Assembly (NCBI GenBank): GCA_937919625.1
Contig: CALFRK010000060.1
Span: 1 to 64,000 of the forward strand
DNA: 64,000 nucleotides
Origin: an uncultured Ilumatobacter sp.
GTDB taxonomy: Bacteria > Actinomycetota > Acidimicrobiia > Acidimicrobiales > Ilumatobacteraceae
Direction of reading: 5' to 3'
Numbering within the stretch: position 1 is the stretch's first letter; each line of letters starts with the position of its first letter. A model generated the notes under the pieces. That model made no database searches. It was not told where the DNA came from and was given only the letters and a program-made list of their open reading frames with translations. The position numbers and the translations under genes are program-made. Positions 7,230-63,857 of this stretch are shown in pieces.

Positions 7230-7230
7230 C

Positions 7231-7263
7231 CGTTACCAAAGGTGCCTGGCACCTGCGGTAACG
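7231..7263. repeat. Nested palindrome, GGTGCC-T-GGCACC core
   Basis: The outer arms CGTTACC (7231-7237) and GGTAACG (7257-7263) flank an inner perfect palindrome GGTGCCTGGCACC (7241-7253). It sits between the convergent LysM and acyltransferase genes. A close relative lies at 63825-63857. There is no T-run, so a simple intrinsic terminator is unlikely, though a hairpin in RNA from either strand is plausible. Confidence 0.8.
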
Positions 7264-7273
7264 GATGCATTCG

Positions 7274-8287
7274 TTAGCCGAGGTCTGGCCAGCGGCGTTG
7301 TTGACGGCGGCGCAGGCCGGCGGCGCCGAGCTTGCGGTGTTCTCCGAGTTCCCACTGGCGGCGCCACCCGTTGTATTCGGGGCCGGTCAGTTTCGGGCTG
7401 CGACCCTGGGCGGCTCGCTTGGTGGCCGTCCAATAGTCGGTCAAGGCCTCGTCGCCGAGCCGGGTGACGGCGGCCTCGATGCGCGAGTTGAAACGACGGG
7501 TGTTCTCGCCTTCGAGCGGTCGCAACGGTGCGCCGAACACAACCTTGGTGCGTCCCGGCTTGGGTCGCTTCATGCCTTTGCCGAAGATTGCACCAGATCC
7601 GTCGATGAAGACCGGCACAACCGGGGCGCCGGTGCGCGATGACAGATACGCAGCGCCGCCCTTGAACTCTTGGCCCCAACCGTCGGGTGACCGCCCGCCC
7701 TCGGGGTAGATCAGCAGGCTGTGGCCATCGGCGACGAGGTCGCGGAACTGATCGCTTGACTTGCGGCCGGTGACCTCTCGATCGATCGGGATGGCGTTGA
7801 GCGCCAGCGCCGACAGGGTCGCCTTCCACTGCTTGTCGAAGAAGTAATCGGCGGCGGCGGCGACCACCAGCCGGCGGCGCCAACAGAGCGGTATCGAGCG
7901 GATCATCAGGGTCGTGTCGACATGGCTGTGGTGGTTGGGGGCAAAGATGACGGGCGGCGATTCGTCGAGGCGGAGCAGATCGTCTAGTCGGTCGAGCCCG
8001 ACGACCTCGGGGTTGGCGATGCCCTTGACGAGCAGCCGTAGTGGGCCCTCTGCGATCAGGCCGCGGGCGGCACTAGCGATCGGGGTGCGAGCCCATTCGG
8101 TGTCATAGTTGGCTCCCAGCCTCGACGGCAGTTTGGGTACCACGACGCCTTTGGGCACGCTCGGCGGGCGGTACGGAAAGCCGTACGAGCGCAGTGGCCT
8201 GGCGGCTGAGCGCACGACCCGCTCGGCTTTGCCGGCGACTCGCTGTGCAGAACGGAGATACCGATTTGCCATCGTCAACTCGCTCAC
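7274..8287 (-). CDS. PlsC-type 1-acylglycerol-3-phosphate acyltransferase family protein
   Basis: A membrane-associated acyl transferase of the lysophosphatidate acyltransferase family. It shows the HX4D catalytic motif (APNHHSHVDTT) and the substrate-binding block YPEGGRSPDGWG. The first roughly 90 residues and the Arg-rich C-terminus are unlike plain PlsC. The acyl acceptor cannot be told from sequence, and it need not be lysophosphatidate. The start is taken as GTG 8287 because it overlaps the stop of the LarA-like gene (GTGA), a coupling seen repeatedly here; ATG 8272 is the alternative. It is the last gene of the four-gene operon that begins at 13519. Confidence 0.85.
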   Translation of the reverse strand: MSELTMANRYLRSAQRVAGKAERVVRSAARPLRSYGFPYRPPSVPKGVVVPKLPSRLGANYDTEWARTPIASAARGLIAEGPLRLLVKGIANPEVVGLDRLDDLLRLDESPPVIFAPNHHSHVDTTLMIRSIPLCWRRRLVVAAAADYFFDKQWKATLSALALNAIPIDREVTGRKSSDQFRDLVADGHSLLIYPEGGRSPDGWGQEFKGGAAYLSSRTGAPVVPVFIDGSGAIFGKGMKRPKPGRTKVVFGAPLRPLEGENTRRFNSRIEAAVTRLGDEALTDYWTATKRAAQGRSPKLTGPEYNGWRRQWELGEHRKLGAAGLRRRQQRRWPDLG

Positions 8288-9870
8288 ACGACATCGGCCA
8301 CGAGCACGCCGGGCACGTGGAGGTGGGAAATGGTGGGCGAGCGGCCAACGACATCGCTGGCGATCTCGAAGGCGTCGTCGAGCGTGCTGGCCGGGGTGAA
8401 CCCGAGTCGGCGGACGGCGGTCGGGTCGCCGCCGACGATGATCACCTTGCCGGCCCATTGCTGGCCGTGGGCACCCCAGTACCAGGCGTAGAAAGGATGC
8501 ACGCCGTGGTAGGCGTTACCGGTGCGGTACAGGTGGCGGTACCACTCGTCCTCGGCGTACTTCTTCTCCCATTTCTCCGACATCACGACAGGGTCGGTGG
8601 TGTCGGCCAGCACCTCGTCGTAGAAGTCGATGTAGCTGGGGTGGTGGACCGGGTTGAACTCGCGGTAGGTCGGGTGGGTCATGATCACCACGCCGCCCTC
8701 GCGCACCAGCGGCTTGTTGCGGTACATGTTGAACAGGTAGCCGAGGCCCATACACATCACGAGAATCGGGTTCATGATGCCCTCTGGGTTGTACGGGCTG
8801 ATGAACGGGATCCCCATCGTGAGGATGTCGGTCTGCCCCTCGACTGGCACGATGTGCTGGTCGTAAACGTGCTTGAGTGTGATCTCGTGCACCGATGGCG
8901 TGAACCCGGCCTGCACGCTGGTGGTGGCGTACGGCGATTCGATGCCGTGGAAGATCTTGCGGGCCAGCCGGTTGGGTGTGCGGTTGAGCGACTTTTGGGT
9001 GGCTAGATAGATGGCGCGGTCTTTGGCGTTCCACTCCCATTCGCGCTTCGATAGGAAGTCGAAAGGCGACGGGAAGGCATCGGTGTTGATCGTGGTTTCG
9101 ACCGTGAAGATCTTGGGGCCGTGATCCTCGAGCACTTTGCCGAGCCGCCAGACACTCTTGTGGAGGTCGCTGTTGTGGCGGTCCATCAGGCTGCGCGTGT
9201 TTTGCAGCGTGACAGGGTTGTGGTGGTAGCTGAGGCAGCGGTACGAGGCGACGCCGGTGGTGATCGACTTCCAGCCGCCGTCCATGGCGACCTGGTTGAC
9301 GTTGGCGTAGACAACGAGATCGCTCTCGGCGACACGCTTGTTGATTTCGAGCACCTCACCGTGGTCGGTCTCGCCGATCACGGTCAGGTTGTCGTAGTCC
9401 TCGGCGTCGTGCTGGTATAGCATGCCGCGCGGGTGGAAGGCGTCGAAGATCCGGTCGCCGAGCACATGGCGCAGCTCGTACTCGTGCATGCGGCGGTGCA
9501 AGCCGAGGGCGGCGATCAAGTGGATGTCGTCGACACCCGCCGCGGCCGCTAGGTCGAGCACGGCCTCGATGATCCGCTGGCGTGTGTCGGGCTTGCGCAT
9601 TTTCGGCAGCGACAGGCTGGCGTCGTCGAAGCAGATCGTGAGCTTCATATCTGGCTTCAATAGCGCCGGCAGCGGGTCCATGTCGACCGGATTCAAAAGG
9701 GCGTTGCGAATGTGGCCGTCGACATCGTCGAGTCCGGCCAGAGGCTCGGCCGGATAGATCACCCGACTGCGGTCGGCGGGCAGCCTCTCGAGGCTGAACC
9801 CCTCGCCGCGCCAGAACAAGATGGGTGGCGTCGACTTGTCAACTTCGAGGACGAATCCGGGGCGAGGCAT
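8284..9870 (-). CDS. LarA-like (lactate racemase family) nickel-pincer protein
   Basis: A 528-residue protein related to LarA, which uses a nickel-pincer nucleotide to racemise alpha-hydroxy acids. Matching to L. plantarum LarA by motif and spacing gives H125 (GLHRRM) for H108, K201 (GGWKSITTG) for the cofactor lysine K184, and H217 for the nickel ligand H200. The 76-residue spacing between the first two is preserved exactly. The position equivalent to the second catalytic His (H174) is V191, and the usual DxTRPxP loop is DDASLSLP. So cofactor binding seems retained but the chemistry or substrate is probably altered. No larB, larC or larE lies in the window. It starts 110 bp after the dehydrogenase gene and its stop overlaps the acyltransferase start. 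Confidence 0.75.
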   Translation of the reverse strand: MPRPGFVLEVDKSTPPILFWRGEGFSLERLPADRSRVIYPAEPLAGLDDVDGHIRNALLNPVDMDPLPALLKPDMKLTICFDDASLSLPKMRKPDTRQRIIEAVLDLAAAAGVDDIHLIAALGLHRRMHEYELRHVLGDRIFDAFHPRGMLYQHDAEDYDNLTVIGETDHGEVLEINKRVAESDLVVYANVNQVAMDGGWKSITTGVASYRCLSYHHNPVTLQNTRSLMDRHNSDLHKSVWRLGKVLEDHGPKIFTVETTINTDAFPSPFDFLSKREWEWNAKDRAIYLATQKSLNRTPNRLARKIFHGIESPYATTSVQAGFTPSVHEITLKHVYDQHIVPVEGQTDILTMGIPFISPYNPEGIMNPILVMCMGLGYLFNMYRNKPLVREGGVVIMTHPTYREFNPVHHPSYIDFYDEVLADTTDPVVMSEKWEKKYAEDEWYRHLYRTGNAYHGVHPFYAWYWGAHGQQWAGKVIIVGGDPTAVRRLGFTPASTLDDAFEIASDVVGRSPTISHLHVPGVLVADVV

Positions 9871-9980
9871 GGCTCAGCGACCTGACCTTTCGAGAGAAAC
9901 GTGGGTACGTGTCGAGGGAAGCGCCAGCGACCAGGCACACAGGCCGAGTAGCCGAAGCGGAGCGGAGGTGATCGAGGCCA

Positions 9981-11168
9981 TCAGCGCAGATCGAAGGCGA
10001 TCTTGACGGCGCCGCGGCGACCTGCGGCGGCGGCATGGGCGATGGCGCCGACGTGGTCGTCGAGCGGATAGGTGGCCGACAATAGGCGCTCGGCCTCGAT
10101 CTGGTTGGCGGTGTCGATCGCCAGCTCGAAAGTGCGTTCGGTGGCGCCGTCCGGCATCGTTTCAGTGCCGTAGGTGTAGGCACCCTTCAACTCTGTCTCG
10201 CGGTGCCACAAGCCGGTCAGGTCGAGCTTGACTTCGGCCGGCATTCCCATCAGCACCACCCGGCCACGCGGGCGGGTGATCCGAAGGCAATCGGTGATCG
10301 ATTCGCTGGTGCCGACGGCGTCGATCGTGGCGTGGGCGCCGGAGCTGAGCGTGTCGCCGATCAGGTGGCAGCCGGCTTCACGCCGAACGGCCCGATCGAG
10401 CTTGGCGGCCTGAACGACGAGGTCGGCCCCAAATGCGGTGGCGAGCGCGATCTGATGTGGGTAGCGGGCGCCGACGACAACTCGCACACCCGGCACATAG
10501 CGCTTGAGGCCGGCGATCGCGGCGAGCCCCATCGTGCCGGCCCCGAGCACGGCCACGAGCGGTTGTTCGACCCCTGCCACCGTTGGCGCTGTGAGCAAGG
10601 CGGCATGGATGCCGCCGGCCAGTGGTTCGACCAGCACGGCGCGCTCGTCTGGCATGTCGTCGCTGATGCGGTGCAGCTGTGAGTCGTGGGCCCAGAACCA
10701 GGGTGCCCAGCCTCCGCCCGTCGAGCAGCAGAATCCGGTTTGGATGCCAGGCCCGATGCCGCCGTTGACGGAGGAGATCGCCAGGTGGGCGTAGTCGTCG
10801 CCGTCGCCGGGTGCGGCGCCGGGAAATGGTGGAGCGGCGCCGCGGGCTTCGTGTCCCAGCACGGGTTCGAGGATGACGCGGGTTCCGTCGTCGAGCTCGC
10901 CGATCACCTCGTGCCCGGGCACGAACGGGAAGCTGACATATTCGTCGAAATATGTTGAGGCATGGCCTTCGACCAGCGACAGATCGGATCCGCAGATTCC
11001 GGCCAGGCGTGTGCGAACGCGGTGCCAACCGTCGCCTGGGCACTCGGGGTCGTCGATCGTGCGCAGTTCGAGCGGGCCAAGTTTGGCGGCTGTGGCCGGT
11101 GCCACCGCTGAGGCGATGCGGGCGATGCCGAACTTGCCGGCGCTGCGACGGATCTGAAGCGCCTTCAT
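9981..11168 (-). CDS. Zinc-dependent alcohol dehydrogenase (MDR family)
   Basis: A 395-residue medium-chain dehydrogenase. The N-terminal catalytic domain has the zinc-site motifs GICGSDLSLVEGH and FVPGHEVIGELDDG, and the Rossmann domain has VLGAGTMGLAA. A loop containing GGIGPGIQTGFCCSTGGGW is unusual for simple alcohol dehydrogenases and may shape a large substrate pocket. ATG 11168 overlaps the stop of the acyl reductase/HAD fusion (ATGA). The two are therefore translationally coupled, and this enzyme probably interconverts the aldehyde or alcohol made by that reductase. The exact substrate is unknown. Confidence 0.85.
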   Translation of the reverse strand: MKALQIRRSAGKFGIARIASAVAPATAAKLGPLELRTIDDPECPGDGWHRVRTRLAGICGSDLSLVEGHASTYFDEYVSFPFVPGHEVIGELDDGTRVILEPVLGHEARGAAPPFPGAAPGDGDDYAHLAISSVNGGIGPGIQTGFCCSTGGGWAPWFWAHDSQLHRISDDMPDERAVLVEPLAGGIHAALLTAPTVAGVEQPLVAVLGAGTMGLAAIAGLKRYVPGVRVVVGARYPHQIALATAFGADLVVQAAKLDRAVRREAGCHLIGDTLSSGAHATIDAVGTSESITDCLRITRPRGRVVLMGMPAEVKLDLTGLWHRETELKGAYTYGTETMPDGATERTFELAIDTANQIEAERLLSATYPLDDHVGAIAHAAAAGRRGAVKIAFDLR

Positions 11169-13519
11169 GAGAACACCCTTCGGCGTTCGCGCTCGACCAT
11201 CATCTTGCCGATCGGCAACAGTGGCTTGGGGGCGCCATTGGCCCGCGACCAGTTCTCGACCAGCCATCCGCGTTTGCGGGCGATCGCTGCCAGACGCGTT
11301 TCGGGGTTGACCGCAACCGGGAAGCCGACCGCCTCGAACAGTGGCAGATCACTCGACGAGTCGGCATAAGCGACACACTCGTCGAGGCGGAAGCCTTCGG
11401 CGTCGCAATAATCTGAGAGGATCTGGGCCCTCGCCTCTCCGGTGGGCGGCACGGTCTTCATCTCGCCCGAATAGGTGCCGTCGGGTCGCACGCTCATCTC
11501 CGCCGCGACGATCTCGTCGAACAGCGGCTTGAGCCCGGCGACAGCAAATTCCAGCGCACCCGTGATCAGGATCGTTCGGTGACCGAGCGCCCGATGCTGG
11601 CGCACGCGGCGCAGACCTTCCGGGAAGCTTTTGGTCATGATCAGCTGATGCATCATGGCCGTTGCGTCTTCTTCGATCTGCTCGATCGGAGCGTCCTCAT
11701 AGCGGCGGTAGAAGTGGCGCAGGAAGTCAGTTCGGTCGCGCTTGTCCATCTTCAGCAGGGCGGGCGCTTCGGCAAGGGTGCGGATCACGTAGCGGGCGCG
11801 TTCGGGGCCGTTGAGGCGTCTAGTCGCCAGAAACGAGTAGCTCTCGACGACGTTCGAGGAGATCAACGTGTTCTCGAGGTCGAACGCCACCACGTGTCGT
11901 TTGGGATCGAGCACCTGCGTGCGAAGACGAACCATCCGGTCCGCGCTGCGCGACTTGCCGGGTGTGGTTTTGACGCGGGCGTGCTGGACGATCGACGGCA
12001 GGTGGACCTGGGTGATGTAGTGCTCCCAGTCGACCACCCGGGGGTCGAAGTTGAACTCGGCCTGGTCGTGGGCATCGAGCGTGTCCCACAGTCCGATCAG
12101 ATTGTCGACCTGGTAGATCGCCTCGCATTCGGTGTAGAGGCCGTACAGCTCGACGTACTGAAGTGCCGACTCGATCTCGGTGCGGCGGCTGTCGAGCGTT
12201 GCCGTGAACTCGGCCTGGCGGCCACGCAAGGGCAGTGCCTGGAGCGTCTTCTCGGTGCGTGACAACATATTCCTGGCGCGCGTCAACTGGCCTTCGACCT
12301 TGCCGCGCCCGGGGAAGTTCCACTCGGGCACCAGGATCGGCTGCCCTTCGGGGTCGTACAGCGGGTGCTCGGTGAACCAGCCGCTGATGTAGTCGATCAT
12401 CGCCCGGTACTTGAGTGGGTTGACGCCGCCGGAGGCGACCTGCGTGATTGCTGGAGCCTTGTCGGGGCCGGCGGCGGCGACGCCGATCAGGGCGGCGACC
12501 ACGATGTCGACGGGGATCACATCGACGGTGCCTTCTGGAACGCCTGGAAACTCTTTCAGGAGACCACGTGCGTAGGAGATGATCACCGGCTCGGCCATGC
12601 GGAAACCGCGAATCCAACCCGGCTTGGGCTCGGCCCAGGCCGACTCGATGATCGACGGCCGCACGATCGACACTGGCACGTTGCCCTTGGTGTCGGTCAA
12701 CGCCTGCTCGCCGAGCGCCTTGGTGTAGGCGTAGGCGTCTGGCCAACCGACGCTGGCAGCACGGGCGCGGCCGGCTTCGACGAGTTGATCCTTGACCCAG
12801 CGCTCACGGAGCTGCTCGGTTTTGCCGGCCAGGGCAGGGGCGCCCGCCGCGCCGAGCTCGGCGCGGGCATCCTTACGGAACTGTACGAGCCGTTCGGGCA
12901 GGCGGCTGAGGGCTTCGGTATCGCCCTGCAGGCGGCGGGCGGCGGCGACCTCGGCCTTCCACGACAGCCCGATGTCGAACGGCCCGGCGCTGACGAGTTC
13001 TTCTGGCGCATTGCCGCGTCGGTTGCCGGCCACATAGCACGTGCTGACGGCGACGAGGTGTGGTGTCACGCCGAGCTCTTGGCAGAGGGCGGCGATCCGG
13101 GTGGGTCCGAGCAGGTTGATCTCGACCGCCCGATCGAGCGGCGAGTCGAAGGAGACAGAGGCGGCCGAGTGGATGATGAGGTTGGCCGTGCTCCACGTGA
13201 GACGGTCATCGTCGCTCAGGCCGAGTCCGTCGCTGCTGACGTCGCCGGCGACGGTAGTGATTCGACGCGCTGTCATCTGCTTGAACGTTTCGGTGCTGTC
13301 GGGCGCGGCGTGCTGTTCGCGCAGCCGATCGAAGGCGTCGTTTTTGAGCAACTCCCGCTCGACCCTTTGAGGTGCAGGTGTACGGCGACCGTCGCGCACG
13401 AGCAGGACCAGCTCGCAGTCCGGCACGCTGCGAAGCAACCGCTCGACGAGGGCGGTGCCGACGAATCCGGTCGAGCCGGTGATGGCGATGCGCTTGCCAG
13501 CGAGCGATTCTGCTATCAC
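11165..13519 (-). CDS. Fatty acyl-CoA reductase-like SDR fused to HAD-IB hydrolase domain
   Basis: A 784-residue two-domain protein. The N-terminal part is an extended SDR of the NAD_binding_4/fatty acyl reductase type: the cofactor motif GSTGFVG is at residues 15-21, with VSTCYVAGNRRG downstream and the active-site YxxxK within YAYTKALGE. The C-terminal part, from about residue 540, is HAD-IB: motif I FDLENTL has D547 but Glu instead of the usual second Asp at 549, motif II is ITGALEF, and motif IV is YADSSSDLP. The frame is open upstream to 13918, but that part is Arg-rich antisense of the TetR gene. GTG 13519 starts just before the Rossmann fold and has TAGACA 8 nt upstream. Likely role: reduction of an acyl thioester, with a possible phosphatase or degenerate regulatory domain. 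Confidence 0.85.
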   Translation of the reverse strand: MIAESLAGKRIAITGSTGFVGTALVERLLRSVPDCELVLLVRDGRRTPAPQRVERELLKNDAFDRLREQHAAPDSTETFKQMTARRITTVAGDVSSDGLGLSDDDRLTWSTANLIIHSAASVSFDSPLDRAVEINLLGPTRIAALCQELGVTPHLVAVSTCYVAGNRRGNAPEELVSAGPFDIGLSWKAEVAAARRLQGDTEALSRLPERLVQFRKDARAELGAAGAPALAGKTEQLRERWVKDQLVEAGRARAASVGWPDAYAYTKALGEQALTDTKGNVPVSIVRPSIIESAWAEPKPGWIRGFRMAEPVIISYARGLLKEFPGVPEGTVDVIPVDIVVAALIGVAAAGPDKAPAITQVASGGVNPLKYRAMIDYISGWFTEHPLYDPEGQPILVPEWNFPGRGKVEGQLTRARNMLSRTEKTLQALPLRGRQAEFTATLDSRRTEIESALQYVELYGLYTECEAIYQVDNLIGLWDTLDAHDQAEFNFDPRVVDWEHYITQVHLPSIVQHARVKTTPGKSRSADRMVRLRTQVLDPKRHVVAFDLENTLISSNVVESYSFLATRRLNGPERARYVIRTLAEAPALLKMDKRDRTDFLRHFYRRYEDAPIEQIEEDATAMMHQLIMTKSFPEGLRRVRQHRALGHRTILITGALEFAVAGLKPLFDEIVAAEMSVRPDGTYSGEMKTVPPTGEARAQILSDYCDAEGFRLDECVAYADSSSDLPLFEAVGFPVAVNPETRLAAIARKRGWLVENWSRANGAPKPLLPIGKMMVERERRRVFS

Positions 13520-13527
13520 AATGGGTA

Positions 13528-13547
13528 TGTCTACCAAATGGTAGACA
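13528..13547. promoter_or_regulatory. TetR operator, perfect 8-bp inverted repeat
   Basis: TGTCTACC (13528-13535), AAAT, GGTAGACA (13540-13547). It lies between the divergent TetR gene (13573) and the reductase operon (13519). Each arm contains a TAGACA -10-like hexamer on one strand: the one for the operon is 8 nt from GTG 13519. Binding would therefore cover both promoters, which fits autoregulation plus repression of the operon. Confidence 0.8.
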
Positions 13548-13572
13548 GATCCGCCACCCCTGGATCCGAACC

Positions 13573-14172
13573 ATGCCTCAGCGAGAGACCCCGACCCGAC
13601 AGCGCATCCTTGATGCGGCGCTCGACCTATTTGGCGCGCGCGGCGTCGATGCCGTCTCGCTAGACGAGATCGCACGCGAGGTTGGCGTGCGCAAACAGAC
13701 GGTCCTGTACTGGTTCGCCTCGAAGGACGAGTTGGTCGACGCCGTGCTCGAAACGGTTGCTGCCGAGTTGGTCGTGGTGATCGATGCGGCTGTGCGGTCG
13801 GCCAGTGATGATCCTCTCGAACGCATCGATCGTGTCGTGAGGGCGGTTTTTCGGCCCGCCGTACGGCGCCCGGCGATGCTGGGCCTGGTGCGAGAAATGA
13901 ACCGTCTTCCCGGTCCACAGGCCGACCGGTTGCGACTCAATGTTCAGCCGCTGGTCGAGCGGTGCGTCGAGTATTTCCAACTCGAGATGGACAAAGGTCG
14001 ACTGCGCCGGGCCGACCCGGGCCTGATCGCAGCGCTCGCCTATGCCACTGTTACGGGCATCGCCACCGAGCCGGAGGCGTTGCGGTCTGTCGGCTGGCAA
14101 CCGACCGCGGTCGGCTTGCGCCACCTGCGAGACGAATTGCGCAGCTTCCTTCGGGCTGCTCTCACCCCCTGA
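13573..14172 (+). CDS. TetR-family transcriptional repressor
   Basis: A 199-residue regulator. The N-terminal helix-turn-helix is typical (TRQRILDAALDLFGARGVDA, then VSLDEIAREVGVRKQTVLYWFASKDEL), followed by an all-helical ligand domain. It is divergent from the acyl reductase/ADH/LarA-like/PlsC operon with a perfect palindrome between them, so it very likely controls that operon and itself. A lipid or acyl-CoA ligand is plausible given the targets, but that is inference. It is convergent with the ATC-hydrolase-like gene, with a gap of only 14 bp. Confidence 0.9.
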   Translation: MPQRETPTRQRILDAALDLFGARGVDAVSLDEIAREVGVRKQTVLYWFASKDELVDAVLETVAAELVVVIDAAVRSASDDPLERIDRVVRAVFRPAVRRPAMLGLVREMNRLPGPQADRLRLNVQPLVERCVEYFQLEMDKGRLRRADPGLIAALAYATVTGIATEPEALRSVGWQPTAVGLRHLRDELRSFLRAALTP

Positions 14173-63824: not shown

Positions 63825-63857
63825 CGTTACTGCAGGTGCCAGGCACCTGCGCTAACG
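63825..63857. repeat. Palindrome, GCAGGTGCC-A-GGCACCTGC
   Basis: A perfect 9-bp inner stem (63832-63840 and 63842-63850) with outer CGTTA (63825-63829) and TAACG (63853-63857). It matches the element at 7231-7263 in core and outer arms. A further half copy CAGGTGCC follows at 63858-63865. It lies between the convergent ppdK and DUF445 genes. Confidence 0.82.

Follow-up and report, generated by a model that had tools for sequence, protein, structure and literature searches.

The window analyzed here is a 64,000-nucleotide stretch of DNA from an uncultured Ilumatobacter sp. (contig CALFRK010000060.1, positions 1 to 64,000). At 7274-14172 it carries five genes, four on the minus strand and a TetR-family gene on the plus strand, that bring a fatty acyl-CoA reductase (FAR) and an acyltransferase together with a relative of LarA, a protein that works with the nickel-pincer nucleotide (NPN) cofactor. 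An original prediction made from the sequence alone had described this divergent arrangement and its gene families, and both are borne out, the families by Pfam and NCBIfam matches (NAD_binding_4, Sterile and HAD; ADH_zinc_N; Lar_N; Acyltransferase; TetR_N). The features are as follows.

7230..7264: hairpin downstream of the PlsC gene (-23.9 kcal/mol, z -4.66, without a T-run)
7274..8287 (-): PlsC-type acyltransferase, GTG start
8284..9870 (-): LarA-like NPN protein (LarAH14/15/16 family) that retains only one catalytic His
9981..11168 (-): zinc-type polyol/ketose-like alcohol dehydrogenase (ADH)
11165..13519 (-): FAR-HAD, a fatty acyl-CoA reductase (NAD_binding_4 and Sterile) fused to a HAD-IB phosphatase domain, GTG start
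13528..13547: predicted operator between the divergent TetR and FAR-HAD starts
13573..14172 (+): TetR-family regulator, divergent from the four-gene set

The genes are tightly packed. As had been proposed, two pairs overlap by 4 bp, FAR-HAD with ADH (11165-11168) and the LarA-like gene with PlsC (8284-8287), and a gap of 110 bp separates ADH from the LarA-like gene. The FAR-HAD protein is predicted to be an alcohol-forming fatty acyl-CoA reductase on the basis of its NAD_binding_4 and Sterile domains and its YxxxK and Rossmann motifs. The FAR part aligns over its full length with the fatty acyl-CoA reductase structure 7eoz, and the active-site motifs are kept among homologues. The motifs of the HAD domain are also present, with DxE replacing DxD in 128 of 142 homologues, and those of PlsC are intact. 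The nearest relatives of the ADH are ketose reductase and sorbitol dehydrogenase. The four structural-zinc Cys residues of the ADH are kept in about 68 of 121 homologues, and all four are lost in the window lineage.

The gene set is real and strongly conserved, and it forms one regulated unit. Among relatives of the window's organism, 46 of 61 genomes have a protein over the cut-off of the LarAH14/15/16 model, and several of the genomes without the family are smaller than 2 Mb. The named LarA-like loci closest to that of the window belong to Ilumatobacter and other Acidimicrobiales. The order TetR / FAR-HAD > ADH > LarA-like > PlsC recurs across the 40 Acidimicrobiales loci fetched from these relatives. 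The exceptions are three loci that lack ADH, loci truncated where a contig ends, and some in which no divergent TetR gene was recognized. In the wider phylum the order from FAR-HAD to PlsC is also found in families f41, f46, f47, f49, f73, f78, f93 and f94, so that the synteny proposed as a check on joint function extends to several other actinobacterial families. Across 396 actinobacterial genomes, a core LarA-like protein occurs with FAR-HAD in 80, alone in none, and FAR-HAD occurs alone in 3 (Fisher 5e-81); the core set was defined post hoc and omits 14 genomes with a divergent LarA-like protein below the cut-off, one of which (G099) has FAR-HAD and is among the three FAR-HAD-only genomes. 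The Fisher value overstates the independent evidence because the genomes are related. Pairwise distances for the LarA-like and FAR-HAD proteins show a correlation of 0.87, which is what co-inheritance predicts. The ADH is a loose member of the set, being absent from 27 loci in which FAR-HAD and the LarA-like gene lie less than 100 bp apart with nothing between them.

A D-Ala ligase gene upstream was considered as a partner and set aside; it looks like inherited context, since the surroundings differ in other families. Clustering of six-frame neighbors returned mostly shadow reading frames. One locus (L218, G392:C53:122000-140000) has FAR-HAD without a LarA-like gene; its genome has larC, and its neighbors are uninformative.

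The predicted operator reads TGTCTACCA-AA-TGGTAGACA. It had been described as a perfect 20-bp element, a description that holds for its two 9-bp arms and not for the unpaired AA at the center, leaving the element symmetric at 18 of 20 positions. The palindrome is not due to chance: it matches once in the window and never in 100 shuffles, and at 57 of 90 divergent loci the operator core lies between the TetR and FAR genes. With up to two mismatches allowed, the rest of the 4.1-Mb genome contains no further copy. Eight bases separate the operator from the FAR-HAD start codon, so that a repressor sitting on the operator would presumably block this start. At the other end of the unit, the hairpin probably marks the end of the transcript, although it is absent from the intrinsic-terminator listing; a promoter and terminator scan gave nothing exceeding chance. 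The hairpin is built around AGGTGCCTGGCACC and lies between two convergent genes. Its core has a second copy near the end of the window, at 63834-63848 (4 strand matches versus 0.02 expected).

The LarA-like protein is the unusual component of the operon. It matches the NCBIfam model LarAH14/15/16 (NF052592) over its full length with 841 bits against a cut-off of 740, and its predicted structure (pLDDT 91) superimposes on LarA_Sp (9q3k) with a Z score of 39.6 and a root-mean-square deviation of 2.3 over 453 residues. The family has in common with LarA_Sp and LarA_Bw the fold, the NPN lysine, the nickel-ligand histidine and one catalytic histidine, which the window protein also retains. In LarA numbering, mapped through the LarA_Sp structure (PMC12611868), the NPN-site residues are nearly invariant across 161 homologues: the covalent Lys184 in 160, and the nickel ligand His200, His108 and Asp72 in all 161. 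What is missing is the second catalytic histidine, His174, which in nearly all homologues gives way to the loop NxNxVxMxGG. LarA_Sp has Asn at this position, whereas the loop of the window protein is shorter. The position of the carboxylate-binding Arg75 is Leu in 152 of the 161 homologues. Without these two residues the protein is probably no alpha-hydroxyacid racemase, and the reading of it as a lactate-type racemase was dismissed for the same reason. It is a member of the LarA superfamily that ought not to be classed as a racemase. Desguin and colleagues suggested that groups without His174 might carry out another hydride reaction. The sole group-14 homologue assayed, LarAH14 from Frankia, was inactive in seven hydroxy-acid assays, none of them with a long-chain substrate (PMC7583248).

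More distant LarA-like proteins, about 36% identical and with the NPN residues mostly kept, occur at seven loci (L111-L115, L128 and L129; families f55, f65 and f50). No FAR-HAD gene lies close to them, and they form a sister group in another context. A search of plasmids for LarA-like proteins returned only a lactobacillar larA, and a search of viral contigs gave no match.

The presence of larB, larC and larE, the genes for NPN synthesis, in the host had been named as a requirement for a joint function, and all three are encoded in the window's own genome. At four loci elsewhere (L102, L103, L104 and L123), larB and larC lie closely 3' of PlsC. LarC is found in 73 of the 80 core genomes versus 142 of the 316 others. 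Two Acidimicrobiales genomes with the operon (G425 and G287) have no larC.

PlsC accompanies the operon in most families, and the Rubrobacteraceae (family f51) offer an informative variant of the gene set. In seven f51 loci a gene for PlsY, the glycerol-3-phosphate acyltransferase, stands directly upstream of FAR-HAD, and no PlsC was found beside the operon in this family. The family assignment rests on two plasmids: contig C2 of G110 is the R. radiotolerans plasmid NZ_CP007516.1 (149,806 bp, 100%), and contig C2 of G261 is an R. marinus plasmid. At one f51 locus (L221, in G100), genes for a sulfatase and a chorismate-binding enzyme lie above PlsY, and a MarR regulator and a MOSC-domain protein are encoded between the ADH and LarA-like genes (L221:10516-12107). 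Mixed ether/ester lipids are dominant in the Rubrobacterales according to the title of a paper (Sinninghe Damste 2023, cited in PMC11150832).

The enzymes known to make the ether bond were sought in these genomes. No AGPS is encoded within the operon, that of Rubrobacter included, and the FAD-oxidase proteins (PF02913) of G100 and R. radiotolerans (G110) are GlcD- or YdiJ-like, none of them AGPS-like. DUF2229, which we take to be a marker of the glycerol ester reductase Ger/PlsA, was found in none of 15 genomes, among them the window's genome and five Rubrobacteraceae. The abstract of the 2023 Rubrobacterales study is said to report a putative 1-O-alkyl glycerol phosphate operon. That study may already have noted the present genes for Rubrobacter; what the present analysis adds is their spread beyond Rubrobacter to the Acidimicrobiia and the role proposed for the LarA-like protein.

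Taken together, the synteny, the co-occurrence in 80 of 80 core genomes, the conserved operator, the alternation of PlsC and PlsY, and larB, larC and larE in the host strongly support the original idea of a joint function, and the gene set very probably serves lipid biosynthesis with an NPN enzyme. Ether-lipid synthesis is suggested by the combination of an enzyme that makes fatty alcohol, an acyltransferase of glycerolipids and a nickel enzyme with a putative concealed redox reaction, in bacteria that have ether lipids and no known enzyme for the ether bond. We give an even chance to the reading that this TetR-controlled operon makes an ether-type glycerolipid, namely a 1-O-alkyl-2-acyl-glycerol-phosphate lipid.

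In the proposed pathway, the FAR would provide a fatty alcohol by reducing a fatty acyl-CoA. The LarA-like NPN enzyme and the dehydrogenase would work on the glycerol-phosphate part, with the alcohol ending ether-bound at sn-1, PlsC (or PlsY) would acylate the glycerol, and the HAD domain would take off a phosphate. The least certain step is that of the LarA-like enzyme, which might transiently oxidize a secondary alcohol of the glycerol backbone and return the hydride with retention. Such a hidden redox reaction is suggested by the kept NPN site and single catalytic histidine, together with the loss of the second histidine and the carboxylate arginine, and it would permit an exchange of acyl for alkyl at C1, the exchange for which AGPS uses FAD. 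The specific proposal that LarAH14 itself forms the ether bond, by transiently oxidizing an acyl-glycerol phosphate at its secondary alcohol so that a fatty alcohol could replace the acyl group before the hydride is returned, is unlikely as it stands.

Several observations weigh against an ether glycerolipid as the product. The same PF02913 search that found no AGPS-like protein in the two Rubrobacter genomes found two in the window's genome (G000), both outside the operon:

G000:C18 (L264:934-2409), - strand: AGPS-like FAD protein
G000:C26 (L265:1154-2671), - strand: AGPS-like FAD protein

Among solved structures, their closest relatives are alkyldihydroxyacetonephosphate synthases (2uuu and 4bby), which would give the window's organism a possible second route to ether lipids. 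Two Acidimicrobiales genomes with the operon (G052, locus L066; G054, locus L060) have no larB, larC or larE over the cut-off; the NPN-site residues are intact in both, as they are in G425 and G287, and G054 and G425 belong to the same family, f19. We know of no NPN enzyme that forms an ether. A literature search for lipid data from Acidimicrobiia found nothing, and the dominance of ether lipids in the Rubrobacterales is taken from the title of the paper as cited (PMC11150832).

Other products have to be considered. The original prediction envisaged a lipid with an alpha-hydroxy or alcohol headgroup or chain; the lipid part of that idea stands, and its alpha-hydroxy part is not favored. In its developed form, the operon would make or modify a lipid with a 2-hydroxy acid or polyol part and the LarA-like enzyme would be an epimerase, acting for example on a glycerate-type headgroup, or on a 2-hydroxy fatty acid that becomes a 1,2-diol and is acylated by PlsC. 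LarA superfamily enzymes of known activity do use 2-hydroxy acids, NCBIfam calls the family a hydroxyacid isomerase, and a FAR could turn a 2-hydroxyacyl thioester into a diol. However, the second catalytic histidine and the carboxylate-binding arginine are missing in nearly all homologues, and the inactivity of the Frankia protein also speaks against it, within the limits of its substrates. An ether glycerolipid fits these features better, and the 2-hydroxy or polyol lipid is a possible but doubtful alternative.

It is rather improbable that the FAR feeds fatty alcohol to wax esters or neutral storage lipids, with the LarA-like protein and the ADH adjusting a precursor. This explanation is kept because Ilumatobacter has WS/DGAT genes, with three to five homologues per genome (PMC10351704), and bacterial FARs do supply wax-ester synthesis. 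Nevertheless, WS/DGAT is not a conserved partner of the operon, whereas PlsC and PlsY are, both of them enzymes of glycerophospholipid synthesis. The same linkage bears on a catabolic or protective operon that would salvage or detoxify long-chain alcohols, aldehydes or damaged lipids with TetR as the sensor. TetR regulators often govern genes of this type, and both the ADH and the HAD family are versatile, but the conserved unit has no transporter, and the tie to PlsC or PlsY and the broad retention of the operon, with absence in several small genomes, fit membrane synthesis better. A role of this kind is very improbable.

The operon can also be compared with systems that are already described. 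Judged by analogy, the nearest is the elb operon (elbA-elbE) of Myxococcus xanthus, a known ether-lipid operon that brings a FAR, a HAD protein, an acyltransferase and a reductase together (PMC9131029). FAR, HAD and glycerolipid acyltransferase functions are co-encoded in both. In elb, however, ElbD combines FAR, acyl-CoA synthetase (ACS), acyl carrier protein (ACP) and acyltransferase in one protein, so that the FAR is fused to an acyltransferase rather than to HAD as it is here, and ElbC is a member without an assigned function (PMC9131029). The present operon has the LarA-like protein and the zinc ADH among its members, and it is not filed as elb because its FAR-HAD lacks AMP-ligase and ACP domains. 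From the animal pathway (FAR1, GNPAT, AGPS and acyl/alkyl-glycerone-phosphate reductase), the FAR, the acyltransferase and possibly the ketone reductase recur here. That pathway uses AGPS, whereas neither the operon nor the FAD oxidases examined from two Rubrobacter genomes include a counterpart. The Ger/PlsA system has the same proposed product class, alkyl glycerolipids, and uses different proteins.

Two questions meet in this operon: the role of LarA homologues in which the second catalytic histidine is missing, and the way ether lipids arise in Rubrobacter and other aerobic actinobacteria that have neither Ger nor AGPS. If the proposal that LarAH14 forms the ether bond is true, the LarA-like protein would be the first NPN enzyme to act beyond hydroxy-acid isomerization, and it would provide a nickel-dependent alternative to AGPS and Ger. 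This would represent new chemistry for the nickel-pincer cofactor, and ether lipids would be predicted in the Acidimicrobiia.

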